DNA from: Novosphingobium sp. 28-62-57
GTDB taxonomy: Bacteria; Pseudomonadota; Alphaproteobacteria; Sphingomonadales; Sphingomonadaceae
Length of the DNA: 64,000 nt
Direction of reading: 5' to 3'
Assembly (NCBI GenBank): GCA_002256985.1
Contig: NCGO01000018.1
Location: forward strand, 40,462-104,461
Shown: positions 9,153-31,682 of the stretch, piece after piece
Layout of the letters: each line of letters begins with the position of its first letter
Numbering within the stretch: the stretch's first letter is position 1
Notes under the pieces: generated by a model
The model's input: the letters and a program-made list of their open reading frames with translations, nothing else
Told to the model about the DNA's origin: nothing
Database searches by the model: none
Made by a program: the position numbers and the translations under genes

Positions 9153-9533
9153 ATGTTCACGCACAGCTTCCTGGGCACCAATGACGTTGAAAAGTCGCGC
9201 CAGTTCTACACCGCGGTCATGGGCGCGCTGGGCCACACCACGGCCGTGCCGCTGCCGATGGGCACGGTGTTCCCTTCGACAGAAGGTTCCCTGATTGTCG
9301 GCACGCCTGCCAATGGCGAAGCGCACACGGTGTCCAACGGCCATACGCTGGGTTTCAAGGCCACGGATTTTGGCGCGGTCGATGCGTTCCACGCCGCAGG
9401 CCTTGCCAATGGCGGCACCTGCGAAGGCGCTCCGGGCGTGCGCGTGAATGCGCCGGGACAGCAATATGGCGCATACTTGCGCGATCCCGATGGCAACAAG
9501 ATCTGCGCCTTCGCACCCAACCCCAACGCCTGA
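9153..9533 (+). CDS. VOC (glyoxalase/bleomycin resistance-like) protein
   Basis: A 126-residue vicinal-oxygen-chelate protein with two beta-alpha-beta-beta-beta halves. It begins with FTHSFLGTNDVEKSRQFYTAVMG and ends with YGAYLRDPDGNKICAF, both typical of the fold. GGAGAG lies eight bases before the ATG at 9153, so upstream in-frame starts are not needed. The sub-family contains lactoylglutathione-lyase-like proteins and dioxygenases, and the reaction cannot be assigned. It may or may not be cotranscribed with the dipeptidase, 99 bp upstream. Confidence 0.82.
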   Translation: MFTHSFLGTNDVEKSRQFYTAVMGALGHTTAVPLPMGTVFPSTEGSLIVGTPANGEAHTVSNGHTLGFKATDFGAVDAFHAAGLANGGTCEGAPGVRVNAPGQQYGAYLRDPDGNKICAFAPNPNA

Positions 9534-9761: not shown

Positions 9762-11171
9762 TTACAGATCGGTGATGCCATAGGGCACCAGATCGCGCGC
9801 GTGCGGATCGACCACGATGGCGCGGTCACTCGGCGGAAAGGCGCGCTGGTCGCAAGCATCGCGCGGGCAGATGCGGCAGGAAATGCCGATCCGGGTCACC
9901 GCTTCGGGCCGCGCCAGATTGATCCCGTCGGCATAGATGAACTCATCGGCCAGCGCCGCTTCGCACCCCAGCGCCACGGCATAGCGGCGCGGCGGGCGGT
10001 AAAAGCTGCCCGATGGTTTGACGAGGCCCTTGGCAATCGAAACATAGCGCACGCCATCGGGCATTTCGGCGGCTTGCACGTGTATGCGATCAGGAATCGC
10101 CACCGCTTCATGCACCACCCATAGCGGGCAGGCCCCGCCAAAGCGGGCGAATTGCAGGCGGGTGGCCGAATGGCGCTTGGTGATGTTCCCGGCCATATCC
10201 ACGCGGCAGAAGAACATCGGAATGCCGCGCGCCTGCGGGCGTTGCAGCGTGGACAGGCGGTGGCAGACCTGTTCGAAGCTGGCCCCGAAGATCTGGCGCA
10301 ACTGGTCTATATCGTGGCGCAGCGCGCGGGCGCGGGTGCGGAACCATTCATAGGGCATGATCAGCGCCCCTGCGGCGTAATTGCCAAGGCCCACGGTCAG
10401 CAACTGCCGCGCCGCGTCCGATTGCAGGGTTGCACTTTCCACAATCGCGGCAATTTCCTCGCGAAGGCCCTCGGCAGCCACCTGATAGGCCATCTGAAAG
10501 CGCCCGCTTTCAATCGGCTGGTTGGGATCAAGCGTCAGCCGCCGTGCATCGGGATCAAAGCGGCGCATCGCCCCGCCGCTCACTTGCTCCACTGCAATGC
10601 CCCGGCTTTCCAGCCAGATCGCCATCTGCCCCATCGTGGGCGACATGCCGGTGCCTGAAAGACGCACGGCGAGGCGTTCGGCAGACCGATCAATAGTGTC
10701 GACATAGTTGTTGGCGTGATGAAACCAGTCGCGCACTTCCTCCCACGGCAGGCGTCCGCCGGTAACATTGTCCGATCCCAGCGCCTCATCAATCGCTTCC
10801 AGCCGCTGCACAGACCGTCGGTGCTGTTCCCACAGCGTTGCAAAAGCCTGTGCGAAGGCCGGATATTGTTCGGCCACACGCTCCACCTGATCGCCGGGAA
10901 GCGCAGCGCCGATCATCGGGTCTGCGGCGGCATCACGCAAAGCGGTCAGCACCGGCTCCACCCGGTCGGCGGCGAAATCCTGCCATTCCACCGGGAAACT
11001 GTGTTGCAACCGGTCGGCCAGAACGGGCGTCAGCGGGCGTTCGTCGTTCTCGATCTGCGAGAGATAGGATGCGCTGATGCCCAGCAGGCTGGCCATTTCA
11101 CCCTGACGCAACTTTCGCGTCGTGCGCAGGGCTTTGAGCTGTTCGCCTGCAAAGAGGCGGCGTCTTGCCAT
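9762..11171 (-). CDS. ScfR-family (PccR-like) XRE regulator of propionate metabolism
   Basis: A 469-residue regulator with an N-terminal helix-turn-helix ([21 protein letters not shown], about residues 20-41). A central ImmA/IrrE-like part and the C-terminal domain with four cysteines ([12 protein letters not shown] and upstream) are typical of short-chain fatty acyl-CoA regulators. PccR of Rhodobacter sphaeroides, of this family, controls propionyl-CoA carboxylase. This gene is divergent from pccB, and TTTGCAAA-type boxes lie between them. The ATG at 11171 is preferred over an in-frame TTG six bases earlier. It probably senses propionyl-CoA or a related thioester. Confidence 0.88.
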
Positions 11172-11186
11172 TTCCAACGATCCGAT

Positions 11187-11393: not shown

Positions 11394-12885
11394 ATGTCCG
11401 CCAATATTGCCGAGATGGAAAAACGCCGTCAGGCAGCACGCATGGGCGGCGGGCAAAAGCGCATCGATGCGCAGCACGCCAAAGGCAAACTGACCGCGCG
11501 CGAGAGGCTGAAGGTCCTGCTCGACGAAGGCAGCTTTGAAGAAGTCGACATGTATGTCGAACACAACTGCGTCGATTTCGGCATGCCCGATACGGTCATT
11601 CCCGGCGATGGCGTGGTGACGGGTTCGGGCACGATCAATGGCCGTCTGGTCTATGTGTTCAGCCAGGATTTCACCGTGTTCGGCGGCTCGCTGTCAGAGC
11701 GGCACGCGCAGAAGATCTGCAAGATCATGGACACCGCGCTGAAAGTCGGCGCACCAGTGATCGGCCTCAACGATTCCGGCGGCGCGCGCATTCAGGAAGG
11801 TGTGGCGTCCTTGGGCGGCTATGCTGAAGTGTTCCAGCGCAACGTGCTGGCCAGTGGTGTGGTGCCGCAGCTTTCATAGCCCTGCGATGACCGACTTCAT
11901 CTTCATGGTGAAGGACAGCAGCTACATGTTCGTCACCGGCCCCGATGTGGTCAAAACCGTGACCAATGAGGTCGTGACGCAAGAAGAACTGGGCGGCGCG
12001 GTAACACACACCACCAAGACCTCGGTCGCCGATCTCGCGCTGGAAAACGACATCGAAGCGCTGCTGGCAGCGCGCGATTTCTTCGATTACCTGCCGCTGT
12101 CAAACCGCCACGACGTGCCCGAACGGCCCACGTCCGACCCCTATGACCGCGCCGAACACAGCCTTGACAGCATCGTGCCCGCATCGGCCAACCAGCCTTA
12201 TGACATGCACGAAGTTATCGCCAAGACGGTGGACGAGGGCGAGTTCTTTGAGATTCAGCCCAAGCATGCGGGCAACATCATCTGCGGTTTCGGCCGCATC
12301 GAAGGCCGCACCGTGGGCATCGTCGCCAACCAGCCGATGGTGCTGGCTGGCGTGCTGGATATCAACTCCTCGAAAAAGGCCGCGCGGTTCGTGCGCTTTT
12401 GCGATGCCTTCAGCATCCCGATCGTGACCTTCGTCGATGTTCCCGGCTTCCTCCCCGGCACGGCGCAGGAACACAACGGCATCATCAAGCACGGCGCAAA
12501 GCTGCTGTTCGCCTATGCCGAAGCCACCGTGCCCAAGATCACCGTCATCACCCGCAAGGCCTATGGCGGTGCCTATGACGTGATGGCCTCCAAGCACTTG
12601 CGCGGGGATTTGAACTACGCCTGGCCCACCGCCGAAATCGCGGTGATGGGTGCCAAGGGCGCGGTTGAAATCATCTTCCGCGGCCTGTCTGCTGAAGAGC
12701 AGGCGGTGAAGACCCGCGAATACGAAGACCGCTTCGCCAACCCCTTCGTGGCGGCGAGCAAGGGCTTCATCGACGAAGTGATCCACCCCCATTCCACGCG
12801 GCGGCGCATCGCGCTGGGCTTGCGCAAGCTCAAGACCAAGAGCTTGGAAAACCCATGGAAAAAGCACGACAACATCCCGCTCTGA
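11394..12885 (+). pseudogene. pccB: propionyl-CoA carboxylase beta subunit, broken by an internal deletion
   Basis: Carboxyltransferase subunit that moves CO2 from biotin to propionyl-CoA to give methylmalonyl-CoA. Frame 1 runs 11394-11879 (161 residues, to GVVPQLS then TAG). The match resumes in another frame at about 11878 with [18 protein letters not shown] and runs to 12885. Homologues have about 12 residues (LIM-GPCAGGAVY) between the two parts, so about 35 bases are missing near 11875. The lost GPCAGG segment forms part of the N-terminal carboxyltransferase active site. With it the protein would have the normal length of about 510 residues. The rest shows no decay. This is a recent lesion or an assembly error. 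Confidence 0.88.
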
Positions 12886-12913: not shown

Positions 12914-14092
12914 ATGACCGACATTTTCATTATCTCGGGCGCGCGCACCGCCATTGGCTCATTCGGCGGCGGGCTCGCCTCGATGCGTCCGGCTGAAACC
13001 GGCGCGATTGTGATCAAGGAAGCCATCGCGCGCGCCGGGATTACGCCTGACAAGGTGCAGAACGTGGTGATCGGCACCGTGGTGCCAACCCAGCCCAAGG
13101 ACGCCTATGTCAGCCGTGTGGCCGCCGTAAACGCCGGCATTCCGATTGAAGCGCCCGCGATGAACGTCAATCGCCTGTGCGGCTCGGGCCTGCAGGCCAT
13201 CGTGTCGGCAGCGCAAGGGATTGCCCTTGGCGAACAAGACATCGCCATCGGCGGCGGTGCGGAAAGCATGTCGAACGCGCCGCACATGGTGCTGACCGCG
13301 CGCAATGGCCAGAAGATGGGCGATCAGGTGCTGATGGACGCCATGCTCGGCGCGCTGCACGATCCGTTTGAAGGCATCCACATGGGCGTGACCGCAGAAA
13401 ACGTGGCCGAGCGCTGCAGCATCAGCCGTGAAGAGCAGGACGCGCTGGCTGTGCAAAGCCACCATCGCGCTGCCGCGGCCATCGCGGCGGGCTATTTCAA
13501 GGACCAGATCGTCCCGGTTGAGATCAAGACGCGCAAGGGCGTGACAGTGTTCGACACCGACGAACACGTGCGTGCCGATGCCAGTGTCGAAGCGATGGCA
13601 GCCCTGCGCCCGGTCTTCAAGAAGGATGGCACCGTCACCGCAGGCAACGCCAGCGGCATCAACGATGGCGCAGCCGCAGTCGTGCTGGCCAGCGGCAAGG
13701 CGGTTGAAGAACATGGGTTAAAGCCGATGGCCAAGATCCTCGGCTGGGGCCACGCGGGCGTTGAACCGAATGTCATGGGCCTCGGCCCGGTCAAGGCCGT
13801 GCCGGTGGCGCTGCAGCGCGCCGGGCTGACGCTCGACCAGATCGACATTATCGAGAGCAACGAGGCGTTTGCGGCACAGGCCTGCGGCGTGGCCAAGGAA
13901 CTGGGCTTCGATCCGGCCAAGACCAACGTCAACGGCTCGGGCATCTCGCTCGGCCATCCCATCGGTGCAACCGGCGCGATCCTGACGATCAAGGCGATGT
14001 ACGAATTGCACCGCACCGGTGGCCGTTATGGCCTGATCACGATGTGCATCGGCGGCGGTCAGGGCATCGCCATGGTCATCGAGAAGGTCTGA
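12914..14092 (+). CDS. acetyl-CoA C-acetyltransferase (thiolase II)
   Basis: A 392-residue biosynthetic-type thiolase with the acylation Cys in NRLCGSGLQA (about residue 89), the GHPIGATGA His motif and the C-terminal CIGGGQGIA Cys motif. It condenses or cleaves acetoacetyl-CoA or a branched 2-methylacetoacetyl-CoA. Lying in the propionyl-CoA module, it could release propionyl-CoA in isoleucine degradation, or serve polyhydroxyalkanoate synthesis. A GGAAG site precedes the ATG. It follows pccB by 28 bp and is followed at once by the epimerase gene, so it is in the same operon. Confidence 0.92.
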   Translation: MTDIFIISGARTAIGSFGGGLASMRPAETGAIVIKEAIARAGITPDKVQNVVIGTVVPTQPKDAYVSRVAAVNAGIPIEAPAMNVNRLCGSGLQAIVSAAQGIALGEQDIAIGGGAESMSNAPHMVLTARNGQKMGDQVLMDAMLGALHDPFEGIHMGVTAENVAERCSISREEQDALAVQSHHRAAAAIAAGYFKDQIVPVEIKTRKGVTVFDTDEHVRADASVEAMAALRPVFKKDGTVTAGNASGINDGAAAVVLASGKAVEEHGLKPMAKILGWGHAGVEPNVMGLGPVKAVPVALQRAGLTLDQIDIIESNEAFAAQACGVAKELGFDPAKTNVNGSGISLGHPIGATGAILTIKAMYELHRTGGRYGLITMCIGGGQGIAMVIEKV

Positions 14093-14094
14093 TC

Positions 14095-14535
14095 ATGAAA
14101 CTGGGCCGCCTCAACCACGTCGGCGTCGCCACGCCAGATATCGACGCTTCGATCGCGTTCTACCGCGATGTGATGGGCGCGAGCGACATTACCGAGCCGT
14201 TCGTGCTGGAAAGCCAGCAGGTGCGGGTGTGCTTCGTGAACACGCCGGGTGAAAACGGGACCGCTGGCACGCAGATCGAGCTGATCCAGCCAACCAGTCC
14301 GGACAGCGCTGTGGGCAAGTGGCTCGCGGCCAACCCCTTGGGCGGCCAGCACCACCTTTGCTACGAAGTGCCCGATATTCACGCGGCCAAGGCGTGGTTC
14401 GAAAGCCAAGGCAAGCGCGTGCTGGGCGAACCCCGCATCGGTGCGCACGGGACGTTGATCTTCTTCGTCCACCCCAAGGACATGGGCGGGCAGCTGACCG
14501 AGATCATGGAAGTGCCTGCGGGCGGGCACCACTGA
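14095..14535 (+). CDS. mce: methylmalonyl-CoA epimerase
   Basis: A 147-residue VOC-fold protein that interconverts (S)- and (R)-methylmalonyl-CoA. Diagnostic features are LNHVGVATPDIDASIAFYRD at the N terminus, QIELIQP, HHLCYEVPDI and the C-terminal GQLTEIMEV; the His and Glu of these bind the metal. The ATG at 14095 follows the thiolase stop by two bases, so translation is probably coupled. The enzyme links propionyl-CoA carboxylase to the mutase encoded next. Confidence 0.93.
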   Translation: MKLGRLNHVGVATPDIDASIAFYRDVMGASDITEPFVLESQQVRVCFVNTPGENGTAGTQIELIQPTSPDSAVGKWLAANPLGGQHHLCYEVPDIHAAKAWFESQGKRVLGEPRIGAHGTLIFFVHPKDMGGQLTEIMEVPAGGHH

Positions 14536-14543
14536 CCTTAAAG

Positions 14544-14664
14544 CCCTCGCCCCTTCAGGGGAGAGGGTTGGGAGAGGGGGCGTACCGCGCAAGGCCCCTC
14601 TCCAACTTCGGCTAGGCAGCAAGCTGCCAAGCCTGCGTATCCTCTCCCCGACCGGGGAGAGGGC
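14544..14664. repeat. intergenic repeat, family C copy 1
   Basis: Starts CCCTCGCCCCTTCAGGGGAG and ends CTCCCCGACCGGGGAGAGGG, with CCCCTCTCCAACTTCGGCTA inside. The same unit occurs inverted at 52454-52579. It separates mce from the mutase gene within the operon and ends one base before the first possible mutase start codon (14665). Confidence 0.8.
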
Positions 14665-14679
14665 ATGGAGATTGAGACG

Positions 14680-16760
<2,081 letters not shown>

Positions 16761-16794: not shown

Positions 16795-18078
16795 ATGACG
16801 CAGAAGCTTGAAACGCTGTCAGTCCACGCCGGGTGTGAGCCTGACCCGACCACAAAGGCACGGATCACGCCGATTTACCAGACGGCCAGCTACGTGTTCG
16901 ACAGTGCCGAGCACGCTGCGAACTTGTTCGCGCTGGCCGAATTCGGCAACATCTACACCCGCATCATGAACCCCACCAATGCCGCGCTGGAAGCCAAGAT
17001 CGCGGCGCTTGAGGGCGGTGTAGGTGCACTTGGCGTCGCTTCAGGCCATGCCGCGCAGTTCATCGTGTTCCACACCCTGATGGAGCCAGGCTGCGAGATT
17101 GTGGCGGCCAAAAAGCTTTACGGCGGCACGCTCAACCAGTTCGCGCATAGCTTTGCCAAGTTCGGCTGGAAGGCGATATTCGTCGATGCCGATGATCCTG
17201 CTGCCGTTGCCGCTGCGATCACCGAAAAGACGCGCGGCGTGTTCATCGAAAGCCTCGCCAACCCCGGTGGCGTGGTGCAGGACATCGCGGCGATTGCCGA
17301 AGTCGCCCATGCCGCAGGCGTGCCGCTGATCGTGGACAACACGATGGCCAGCCCCGCGCTGTGCCGCCCGATCGAACATGGCGCGGACATCGTCGTCCAT
17401 TCGTGCACCAAGTTCCTTAACGGCCACGGCAATTCCATCGGCGGGCTGATTGTGGATTCGGGCAAGTTTGATTGGGCAGCGAGTGACAAGTTCCCCTCGC
17501 TCACGCAGCCCAACCCGAGCTACCACGGCGCGGTGCTGACCGAGGCATTGAAGCCCGTCGGCCCCATCGCCTTCATCATCGGCTGCCGCGTGCTCGGCCT
17601 GCGCGATCTCGGTCCTTCGATGGCACCGATGAACGCATTCCTGACGCTGACCGGCATGGAAACGCTGGCGCTGCGCATGGAGCGGCACTGCAGCAATGCG
17701 CTGCATCTGGCGCAGTGGCTGCAGGCCCATCCCAAGGTGGCGTGGGTGTCCTACGCAGGTCTGCCGGAAGACCCCTATCACCAACTGGCCAAGCAATACC
17801 TTGGCGGCAAGGGCGGCGCGGTGTTCACCTTCGGCGTGAAGGGCGGCTACGAGGCGGGCGTGAAGCTGGTCCAGTCGGTCAAGCTGTTCAGCCACCTCGC
17901 CAACATCGGCGACACCCGCTCACTGATCATCCACCCCGCTTCGACCACGCACAGCCAGTTGGGCGAGGAAGAACTGGTGGCCGCAGGTGCAGGGCCGGAT
18001 ACGGTGCGCGTGTCGGTGGGCATCGAGCATATCGACGACATTGTGGCCGATTTGGCGCAGGCGTTGGAATTGGTGTGA
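16795..18078 (+). CDS. metY: O-acetylhomoserine sulfhydrylase (MetY type)
   Basis: A 427-residue PLP enzyme of the Cys/Met metabolism family that makes homocysteine from O-acetylhomoserine and sulfide. It has ETLSVHAG at the N terminus, the phosphate-binding YTRIMNPT segment, DNTMASP, and the PLP lysine in HSCTKFLNGHG. The length of about 430 residues fits MetY rather than the shorter MetB/MetZ. A clear GAAGGAGAG site precedes the ATG. It sits between the mutase and pccA genes. Methionine synthesis has no direct step in the propionyl-CoA route, so its presence here may be chance or a shared B12/methionine theme. Confidence 0.9.
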   Translation: MTQKLETLSVHAGCEPDPTTKARITPIYQTASYVFDSAEHAANLFALAEFGNIYTRIMNPTNAALEAKIAALEGGVGALGVASGHAAQFIVFHTLMEPGCEIVAAKKLYGGTLNQFAHSFAKFGWKAIFVDADDPAAVAAAITEKTRGVFIESLANPGGVVQDIAAIAEVAHAAGVPLIVDNTMASPALCRPIEHGADIVVHSCTKFLNGHGNSIGGLIVDSGKFDWAASDKFPSLTQPNPSYHGAVLTEALKPVGPIAFIIGCRVLGLRDLGPSMAPMNAFLTLTGMETLALRMERHCSNALHLAQWLQAHPKVAWVSYAGLPEDPYHQLAKQYLGGKGGAVFTFGVKGGYEAGVKLVQSVKLFSHLANIGDTRSLIIHPASTTHSQLGEEELVAAGAGPDTVRVSVGIEHIDDIVADLAQALELV

Positions 18079-18367: not shown

Positions 18368-18586
18368 ATGCGCAAGGTCGGGTGTTTTCTGCTTGGTCTG
18401 ATCGGGTGTGCTTTCGTGGCTTTCCTTCTGGTCGGAGCAGCAATGGGCGATTGCGCGCCGAACGCTGACGGCACGGGCTGCGAGAATGACGGATTGATCC
18501 GCTTCCTGATGTTTCCGGGAAGTCTGATCTTGTTGATTGCGATTGGTATCTTCGCCGCAAGGCGTGTGACGAAAGACAGGGACTAA
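18368..18586 (+). CDS. small two-segment membrane protein coupled to pccA
   Basis: A 72-residue protein with two hydrophobic segments (about residues 4-25 and 48-66), joined by a loop with two cysteines (DCAPNADGTGCEND), and a basic C terminus (RRVTKDRD). I do not recognise a family. The ATG at 18368 starts directly before the first segment; an in-frame GTG at 18335 would add 11 polar residues. Its stop codon shares one base with the pccA start (TAATG), so pccA translation is probably coupled to it. Function unknown; coupling to the biotin carboxylase gene is the only clue. Confidence 0.6.
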   Translation: MRKVGCFLLGLIGCAFVAFLLVGAAMGDCAPNADGTGCENDGLIRFLMFPGSLILLIAIGIFAARRVTKDRD

Positions 18587-20607
18587 TGTTCAAGAAAATC
18601 CTCATCGCCAACCGTGGTGAAATTGCCTGCCGTGTGATCAAGACGGCCCGCCGCATGGGTATTGCCACCGTCGCGGTCTATTCGGATGCCGATGCGCGCG
18701 CGCCGTTCGTGCAGATGGCCGATGAAGCCGTGCACATCGGCCCTGCGCCTGCCGCGCAGTCCTACCTGATCGCTGACAAGATCATCGCAGCGTGCAAGCA
18801 GACGGGTGCGGATGCGGTGCATCCGGGCTACGGCTTCCTGTCAGAGCGTACCTCGTTTGCCGAAGCGCTGGCGGCTGAAGGCATCGCCTTTGTCGGCCCT
18901 CCGGTGAATGCCATTGCCGCGATGGGCGACAAGATCGAATCCAAGAAGCTGGCGATGAAGGCAGGCGTCAACGTCGTGCCCGGTTTTGTGGGCGAGATCG
19001 AGGATACCGAACATGCCGTGCGCATTTCGGAAGAAATCGGCTATCCGGTGATGATGAAGGCCTCTGCTGGCGGCGGCGGCAAGGGCATGCGCCTTGCCTA
19101 TTCCGAGCAGGACGTGCGCGAGGGCTTTGAAGCGACCAAGCGCGAAGGGCTGAACTCGTTCGGCGATGACCGCGTGTTCATCGAGAAGTTCATCCTCAAC
19201 CCGCGCCACATCGAGATCCAGATCCTCGGCGACCAGCACGGCAACATTCTGTACCTGAACGAGCGTGAATGCTCGATCCAGCGCCGCCATCAGAAGGTGG
19301 TGGAAGAAGCGCCTTCGCCCTTCGTCACGCCCAAGATGCGCAAGGCCATGGGCGAACAGTGCGTCGCGCTGGCCCGCGCGGTGGGCTATTACTCGGCAGG
19401 CACGGTGGAACTGATCGTTTCGGGCGCGGACCCCTCAGGCGAGAGCTTCTACTTCCTCGAAATGAACACCCGCCTGCAGGTGGAGCATCCTGTCACCGAA
19501 GCCATCACCGGCATCGACCTTGTCGAACAGATGATCCGCGTGGCCGCTGGCGAGAAGCTGGCGTTGACGCAGGATGATGTGAAGATCGACGGCTGGGCCA
19601 TCGAAAACCGCGTCTATGCCGAAGACCCCTATCGCGGCTTCCTGCCCTCCACTGGCCGCCTGATCCGCTATCAGCCGCCACTGGCAGGCTGGACTGACGA
19701 TGGGCACGCCAATGGCCGTCGCGGTGTGGACGGCGTGCGCGTGGACGATGGCGTCTATGAAGGCGGCGAAGTTTCGATGTTCTATGACCCGATGATCGCG
19801 AAGCTGATCACGTGGGGGGAAACGCGCGATGAAGCAGCGGACAAGCAGATCGCGGCATTGGATGCGTTTGAAATCGAAGGGCTTGGCCATAACATCGATT
19901 TCGTCTCGGCCATCATGCAGCACCCGCGCTTCCGCTCGGGCGAACTGACCACGGGCTTCATCGCCGAGGAATATCCGGAGGGCTTCCACGGGGCAGCTAC
20001 TTCGGACGAATTGAAAGAGACACTGGCCGCGCTGGCAGGCTTCCTCGCCACCGCCCGCGCCGACCGCGCCCGCCGCGTCGACCAGCAACTGGGTGACGAG
20101 CTTGATCCGCCTTACGAATGGGCAGTGAAGATCGGCGATACGACGTATGCCGTCACGCTCGACGAAGATGAAGTGACGGTTGACGGCAAGGCCATCGACC
20201 TCGCGCTGGAATACACGCCGGGTGACCGGATCGTGCATTGCGAGATCGACGACAAGCCGCTGTCGGTAAAGGTCGAACCCACCCGCGCCGGCTTCAAGCT
20301 GACCACGCGCGGCGCGATTCAGCAGGTGCAGGTCCTGCCCGCCCACATCGCGCCGTACACGCAGCACATGATCGAAAAGATCCCGCCCGATCTTTCGAAG
20401 TTCCTGATCTGCCCGATGCCGGGCCTGCTCGTCACGCTCAACGTGGGCGAGGGCGATACGGTGGAAGCGGGCCAGCCATTGGCCGTGGTCGAAGCGATGA
20501 AGATGGAAAACATCCTGCGCGCGGAGAAGGCGGGCAAGGTGAAGTCGGTCAATGCCAAGGCGGGTGATAGCTTGGCCGTGGATGCGATCATTCTTGAGAT
20601 GGAGTGA
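18586..20607 (+). CDS. pccA: propionyl/acetyl-CoA carboxylase alpha subunit (biotin carboxylase + BCCP)
   Basis: A 673-residue protein with, in order, a biotin carboxylase domain (KILIANRGEIACRV, ATP-grasp glycine loop KASAGGGGKGMR, EMNTRLQVEHPVTE), a BT linker domain at about 500-590, and a C-terminal biotinyl domain with VVEAMKMENIL, the lysine being biotinylated. The alpha subunit carboxylates its own biotin for transfer by PccB. The order and length fit PccA. It is intact, while the presumed partner pccB at 11394 is broken in this sequence. The start overlaps the stop of the small membrane protein gene. Confidence 0.92.
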   Translation: MFKKILIANRGEIACRVIKTARRMGIATVAVYSDADARAPFVQMADEAVHIGPAPAAQSYLIADKIIAACKQTGADAVHPGYGFLSERTSFAEALAAEGIAFVGPPVNAIAAMGDKIESKKLAMKAGVNVVPGFVGEIEDTEHAVRISEEIGYPVMMKASAGGGGKGMRLAYSEQDVREGFEATKREGLNSFGDDRVFIEKFILNPRHIEIQILGDQHGNILYLNERECSIQRRHQKVVEEAPSPFVTPKMRKAMGEQCVALARAVGYYSAGTVELIVSGADPSGESFYFLEMNTRLQVEHPVTEAITGIDLVEQMIRVAAGEKLALTQDDVKIDGWAIENRVYAEDPYRGFLPSTGRLIRYQPPLAGWTDDGHANGRRGVDGVRVDDGVYEGGEVSMFYDPMIAKLITWGETRDEAADKQIAALDAFEIEGLGHNIDFVSAIMQHPRFRSGELTTGFIAEEYPEGFHGAATSDELKETLAALAGFLATARADRARRVDQQLGDELDPPYEWAVKIGDTTYAVTLDEDEVTVDGKAIDLALEYTPGDRIVHCEIDDKPLSVKVEPTRAGFKLTTRGAIQQVQVLPAHIAPYTQHMIEKIPPDLSKFLICPMPGLLVTLNVGEGDTVEAGQPLAVVEAMKMENILRAEKAGKVKSVNAKAGDSLAVDAIILEME

Positions 20608-30719: not shown

Positions 30720-31682
30720 ATGGGGACTGACGGCGAATTGGCAGATCGTTGCCGGGTAAACAGCCTCGTGGAGACGCCAGGCTGCGAGCCCGTTCACGGA
30801 GTGGTGCGCTGGGATCCGGTGCATTCTCTGTGGAACGGAGGGATGCTTGCCGTATCGCTTGTGCTTGGCCCGGTGTTCCTGACCTGGGACGCATTGCTGG
30901 TATTCGTGGTCATGACCGGCACCTCGCTGTTGCTTGGGCACAGCGTGGGATTTCATCGCCGCCTGATCCATCGCAGTTTTGGCTGTCCGCTGTGGCTAGA
31001 ACGTGTGCTGGTGTGGATCGGCACCTGCGTGGGGATGAGCGGCCCGTTCTGGATGATCCGGACGCATGACTTGCGAGACTGGGCGCAACGAAATCCGCAA
31101 TGCCATGATTACCTCGCTCATCGCGGTGGAATGGCGCGAGACTATCTTTGGCAGGTGCACTGTCGCCTGAAGCTTGACCACTCTCCGCACTTCGATCTGG
31201 GACGTGCCGGACGCGATCCATTCTATCGCTTTCTCGAACGGACATGGATGCTGCAGCAACTGCCGATTGCCGCACTGCTGTTTCTGTTCGGTGGGTTAGG
31301 CTGGGTGATCTGGGGCGTGTGCGTCCGGGTGACGGTATCGGTGACGGGACACTGGTTTGTCGGCCATCTCGCCCACACGCGCGGGCCGCAGACCTGGCAA
31401 GTGGTAGAAGCCGGTGTTCAAGCGCATGATGTGCCATGGGCTGCCATCCCGACCATGGGCGAGGCATGGCACAACAACCATCACGCATATCCCGGTTCAG
31501 CGCGGATTGGCATTCATGCGGGACAGTCCGATTGGGGCTACGCCTTTATTTGTCTGCTTAAACGCGCTGGTCTTGCTTGGGATGTAGTGCTGCCGGAGCA
31601 TCTTGACCGGGCCGATGCGCTCAAGCGCGTAGCGTCGCCATTCTGGAAGGCGGCGGAAAGTCTGAAGGAGGCGCGGACATGA
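30720..31682 (+). CDS. membrane fatty acid desaturase (delta-9 acyl type)
   Basis: A 320-residue integral membrane di-iron desaturase. The three histidine boxes are present: GHSVGFHRRLIHRSF, HDLRDWAQRNPQCHD-like region and EAWHNNHHAYP. Two pairs of hydrophobic segments flank them. This fits the stearoyl/palmitoyl desaturase family; the exact substrate and regiochemistry cannot be read, and box 2 is not the standard HRxHH form. The ATG at 30720 is taken over a TTG at 30702. It overlaps the next gene by four bases (ATGA). The divergent ArsR protein is the likely regulator. It probably adjusts membrane lipid unsaturation. Confidence 0.85.
   Translation: MGTDGELADRCRVNSLVETPGCEPVHGVVRWDPVHSLWNGGMLAVSLVLGPVFLTWDALLVFVVMTGTSLLLGHSVGFHRRLIHRSFGCPLWLERVLVWIGTCVGMSGPFWMIRTHDLRDWAQRNPQCHDYLAHRGGMARDYLWQVHCRLKLDHSPHFDLGRAGRDPFYRFLERTWMLQQLPIAALLFLFGGLGWVIWGVCVRVTVSVTGHWFVGHLAHTRGPQTWQVVEAGVQAHDVPWAAIPTMGEAWHNNHHAYPGSARIGIHAGQSDWGYAFICLLKRAGLAWDVVLPEHLDRADALKRVASPFWKAAESLKEART

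Follow-up and report, generated by a model that had tools for sequence, protein, structure and literature searches.

A propionyl-CoA gene cluster with two interrupted genes

The window analysed here is a stretch of 64,000 nucleotides, positions 40462-104461 of contig C23, from an assembly of 4,102,969 bases in 39 contigs that is rated 100% complete. The genes of interest in it are laid out as follows.

9762-11177, minus strand: divergent RamB-like regulator gene, open (389.7 bits, under the family cut-off of 700)
11394-11879, plus strand: 5' part of pccB, 161 codons, ending GVVPQLS, with a TAG at 11877-11879; Pfam PF01039 positions 2-136 of 493
11875-11876, plus strand: junction of the 35 bp deletion in pccB, give or take 1-2 bases; relatives carry LIMGPCAGGAVY or a near-identical sequence here
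11875-12885, plus strand: 3' part of pccB in the next frame, HSPAMTDF...DNIPL; PF01039 positions 149-493 of 493
12914-14092, plus strand: beta-ketothiolase gene (BktB-like), intact, by homology
14107-14535, plus strand: methylmalonyl-CoA epimerase gene, intact (TIGR03081, 118.2 bits against a cut-off of 114.95)
14680-15804, plus strand: 5' part of the mutase gene, homology up to ...TDFS and then out of frame; stop at 15802-15804
15766-15767, plus strand: junction of the 61 bp deletion in the mutase gene, give or take 1-2 bases; relatives carry RIARNTQ and about 13 more residues
15767-16760, plus strand: 3' part of the mutase gene in another frame, carrying the B12-binding domain
16795-18078, plus strand: O-acetylhomoserine sulfhydrylase gene, intact and in the same cluster, by homology
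18586-20607, plus strand: pccA (biotin-carboxylase subunit), intact, by homology

The frame of pccB (11394-12885) starts at the ATG at 11394. Relative to the sequences of relatives, the gene lacks 35 bp at 11875/11876, a position fixed only to within 1-2 bases, as the ancestral sequence can only be guessed from relatives. No single open carboxyltransferase frame is present: the gene is divided between two frames, the first closed by the TAG at 11877-11879, and the closest in-frame ATG for the 3' part lies at 11887. When pccB was compared by blastn with six relatives, a single 35 bp gap was found at 11876 in L052, L054, G027, and G009, and in L053 and G011 the aligner split the gap into pieces that total 35. 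The remaining gaps were a compensating +1/-1 pair (against G009) and differences of 1-5 bases at the extreme gene ends. An alignment of 29 same-genus loci contained one 35-column gap in our pccB, and the other gaps of this sequence within the gene, of 3, 3, 15, and 6 columns, were multiples of three. These alignments and the frame analysis bear out the preliminary description, according to which pccB has lost about 35 bp and is out of frame, the N-terminal part ending GVVPQLS-TAG and the match resuming in another frame at SPAMTDF (HSPAMTDF from 11875, one frame over).

The same description had noted that the GPCAGGAVY loop, which we take to be the oxyanion-hole loop of the carboxyltransferase, is gone, and it is indeed absent from pccB here. 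The corresponding place was read through in one frame in 80/80 named loci, the best-scoring 80 of 589 retrieved with the C-terminal half of pccB, and in 29/29 same-genus loci. Among the 12 loop positions, M, G, P, A, G, G, V, and Y were identical in all 80 named loci, with variation limited to the first L (39/80), I (77/80), C (77/80), and the second A (72/80). The three closest pccB genes among these loci were from Novosphingobium. A DNA search with pccB gave a match in 57 of 61 genomes, our own included, and in 49/49 genomes of good quality. In one metagenome-assembled genome (L061, Sphingomonas bacterium RYN_529), pccB has an in-frame stop at codon 244 and retains the loop. The best solved relative of the 3' part is the propionyl-CoA carboxylase beta subunit 6ybp (6e-162). 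As in that family (PF01039; 6ybp, 3n6r), the two pieces jointly cover positions 2-136 and 149-493 of 493, but here the 12 active-site loop positions are missing and the frame is broken. Without the loop, PccB has no means of holding the thioester oxygen.

The reading of pccB given in the preliminary description is incomplete, since the gene for methylmalonyl-CoA mutase (about 14680-16760), which acts two steps after the carboxylase in the same pathway, is also broken. This break, shown by tblastn of relatives' genes against the window, is a 61 bp frame-breaking deletion at 15766/15767, 3.9 kb downstream of the pccB lesion, and the gap sits between TTTTCCG and CGATCC. The probable start codon is at 14680; the open reading frame list starts at the ATG at 14665. 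The barrel and the B12 domain do not share one open frame, as the two pieces lie in different frames. The place was spanned in one frame in 47 of the 80 named loci, all 47 with an identical RIARNTQ; of the other 33, 32 had no mutase within the locus and one was cut by a contig end. The gene resembles that of single-chain methylmalonyl-CoA mutase (PRK09426; structures 2xij, 1req) in having both barrel and B12-binding parts, but about 20 residues are gone and the frame is broken. A mutase that lacks part of the barrel and is severed from its B12 domain is dead. Between the epimerase and mutase genes (14540-14665), there is an inverted-repeat-like sequence whose length differs among relatives.

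It could be asked whether the pieces act as split subunits, like accA/accD of acetyl-CoA carboxylase or the two-chain mutases, as each 3' piece is open with possible starts. We consider this very improbable. In pccB, the conserved loop is lost at the break, which falls at profile positions 136-149 of 493, and the mutase break is within the barrel domain, ahead of the start of the B12 domain. Since residues are missing, neither association of the pieces nor readthrough or frameshifting can restore them.

The thiolase, epimerase, sulfhydrylase, and pccA genes of the cluster are full length and open. In N. tardaugens, the same gene set is clustered and testosterone-induced (PMC6895838). This induction supports the view that the cluster serves as the propionate route in this genus. 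The methylmalonyl pathway cluster of that species, EGO55_01990-02025, likewise unites pccA, mutase, epimerase, and pccB; the portion of the article available to us mentions no broken gene there, whereas two of the four are broken here (PMC6895838).

Search for back-up genes and an alternative route

The preliminary description had foreseen the loss of propionyl-CoA carboxylase unless another copy exists, and had called for a search for a second pccB in the rest of the genome. The search was run on the whole assembly and returned no second pccB, the gene being seen solely as its two pieces. With the loop mostly invariant in relatives, this result supports the expected loss. Since pccB is out of frame, its loop is lost and no second copy was found in the assembly, the proper enzyme is lost if the sequence is right. 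A second mutase was not found assembly-wide either, the only PF01642 matches being the two mutase pieces.

Of the six PF01039 matches in the assembly, two are the pccB pieces and one is a 594-codon frame on C1; the other three are weaker, and one of these is accA-like. The only other full-length carboxyltransferase is C1:186956-188410, which shares 35% identity with PccB's C-terminal half. The ten solved chains nearest to it are headed by 4q0g (acetyl-/propionyl-CoA carboxylase AccD1) and then 3u9r (methylcrotonyl-CoA carboxylase). They include several methylcrotonyl-CoA carboxylases and two chains labelled with propionyl-CoA, 4q0g and 9tps (propionyl-CoA carboxylase beta). As PccB matches 9tps weakly (1.7e-55) compared with 6ybp (6e-162), 9tps belongs to the other branch. 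From these matches, we take C1:186956-188410 for a methylcrotonyl-CoA carboxylase that may have some propionyl-CoA activity.

For the methylcitrate route, the best assembly matches to its markers were below the cut-offs, both for citrate-synthase-II (336.8 against 421.3) and for PrpB (61.5 against 354.4). The two missing segments were also looked for by pattern search of the assembly: one gave a single match with two mismatches, on C29, and the other gave none.

Age of the lesions and background rate of broken genes

To estimate dN/dS (Nei-Gojobori), slightly trimmed gene halves of our sequence were compared with four relatives. Values were 0.018-0.077 for the pccB halves and 0.036-0.116 for the mutase halves; those of the intact thiolase, epimerase, and pccA genes against the same four relatives were 0.024-0.107. 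No stops were found in the aligned pieces of pccB and mutase. Low dN/dS in both halves of both genes and the absence of stops imply a recent loss, and both lesions look very young. Each gene is an otherwise conserved orthologue with a frame-breaking lesion, which would class it as a pseudogene formed by recent deletion. Such pseudogenes are ordinary, and the point of interest is their pairing inside one pathway.

We then compared about 101 of our gene regions (113,636 bp) with relatives, and after the flagged rows had been read, pccB and mutase alone were broken. The comparison started from 119 relative-gene queries, which gave 101 distinct regions, some with doubtful gene models, and the sample was non-random, being centred on the window and on syntenic stretches. 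Matches had at least 65% identity, E of at most 1e-15, and 70% query coverage, and a stop counted only if it lay outside the first 20 and last 8 codons; with these cut-offs, a gene that had lost more than about 30% would escape. Among the 11 flagged rows, three were pccB, one was mutase, four were antisense models over mutase, and three were harmless (a stop lying 10 codons short of the end, a model that extended too far, and an antisense model). In the reverse control, with our genes against relatives, 2/112 queries were flagged: a small doubtful model and a gene split over two frames in G027 (C1, about 143660-144660), whose orthologue in our genome (G000 C3, about 68390-69352) is open. This comparison supersedes earlier homology screens, which were cluttered by long antisense frames and in one of which the stretches C4:6001-26000 and C1:527001-547000 of our genome contained no compared gene.

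Both lesions lie in one pathway while the rest of the compared sample is clean, and this speaks for a real loss. With about 6.0 kb of the 113.6 kb taken up by the four pathway genes, and one lesion already placed in pccB, the chance that a second random lesion strikes another of them is about 4%, a figure that is suggestive only. Moreover, both genes belong to one 9 kb cluster; a local assembly fault would therefore look identical, and pathway and position are confounded.

A coding-frame model was also applied. It called 13 frame changes in 344 kb of our DNA and 20 in 380 kb of G011, and systemic frameshift noise was rejected. The model flagged mutase and missed pccB; it is blind to lesions of the pccB type because a usable start comes after the stop. 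One of the 13 changes is the mutase lesion, and 10 are at or near the ends of neighbouring open frames. The change at position 9435 of the C23 set is inside a frame that matches PfkB positions 35-296 of 302, and at 69403 of the same set (window 29403) the gene matches G011 in one frame. A supposed third lesion at 31311 of the C23 set proved to be a tRNA-Ser gene upstream of an open gene.

Origin of the deletions and fate of the pathway

Possible microhomology at both junctions is about 0-2 bp, the lost bases being guessable from relatives only. No Ku gene was found in a search of the genome, the positive control giving its match in Bacillus subtilis. These results make both repeat-mediated deletion and Ku-type end joining an uneasy fit. 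Judged on four relatives, predicted DNA hairpins at both sites are no stronger than in the rest of the cluster, and hairpins as a cause are not supported. GC richness applies in part, to the pccB site only: this site ranks in the top 2-4% of 60-base windows in two of the four relatives and in the top 13-18% in the other two, and the mutase site was GC-rich in 0/4. The junction, hairpin, and GC data favour neither a slippage deletion nor an overlap-driven misassembly.

It is quite possible, if short of probable, that the 39-contig public draft is wrong at both gaps through a faulty local join or gap closure, and that the genes are intact in the organism. The two lesions lie inside 3.9 kb, both genes are otherwise under purifying selection with no older decay, the junctions have no repeat, the pccB loop is never missing in the 80 named and 29 same-genus loci, and the pccB site is GC-rich to the extent given above, all of which would suit such errors. 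However, an assembly fault has to be reconciled with the lack of any further broken gene in the roughly 101 regions, with hairpins no stronger at these sites than elsewhere in the cluster of four relatives, with a mutase site that is not GC-rich, with a window without any N, and with junction overlaps that are almost nil and leave little to drive a false join.

On balance, we lean towards two short recent frame-breaking deletions, of 35 bp in pccB and 61 bp in mutase, having inactivated the sole route from propionyl-CoA to succinyl-CoA that was found. Here we infer from the sequence that the deletions are real in the organism and that the pathway is dead. PccB would have lost its active-site loop and been cut in two, and the mutase would have lost about 20 barrel residues, its B12 domain being severed from the remainder. 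The second deletion may have followed the first either because the cell had ceased to benefit from the pathway or through harm done by its intermediate. Counting against a real loss, two deletions without extra stops or raised dN/dS are more than usual neutral decay would give.

As a sub-case of this double inactivation, relaxed selection alone could have led to loss of the pathway by drift in a strain kept or living in conditions in which it uses no propionate, odd-chain fatty acids, or branched-chain amino acids. It shares the support of the double inactivation, two genes of one pathway being affected, but neutral decay usually adds substitutions and stops, and here the aligned pieces are stop-free and dN/dS is not raised; we regard it as rather unlikely. 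Still more doubtful is a selected pair, in which loss of the mutase would cause methylmalonyl-CoA to build up and loss of pccB, which makes the precursor, would relieve the harm as a natural suppressor, both deletions being fixed fast.

Unless the public assembly is wrong at both gaps, the organism should be incapable of using propionate. Propionyl-CoA arises from valine, isoleucine, methionine, odd-chain fatty acids, and steroids. If the double inactivation is true, a free-living alphaproteobacterium has just lost its known propionyl-CoA route, and the locus could reveal the order in which a pathway with a harmful intermediate is dismantled. If the assembly is at fault, it serves as a warning that a pair of enzymes from the same pathway can vanish unnoticed from a draft rated 100% complete and lead metabolic models astray.

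Elsewhere in our genome, two short palindrome-rich repeats on contig C1 (L133, 4488-4592 and 16516-16558) look like REP-type elements. By blastn, the first was matched 15 times, counting itself, within 384 kb of our DNA, and the second matched only itself in our sample. Among the matches listed, both had many in three related genomes.
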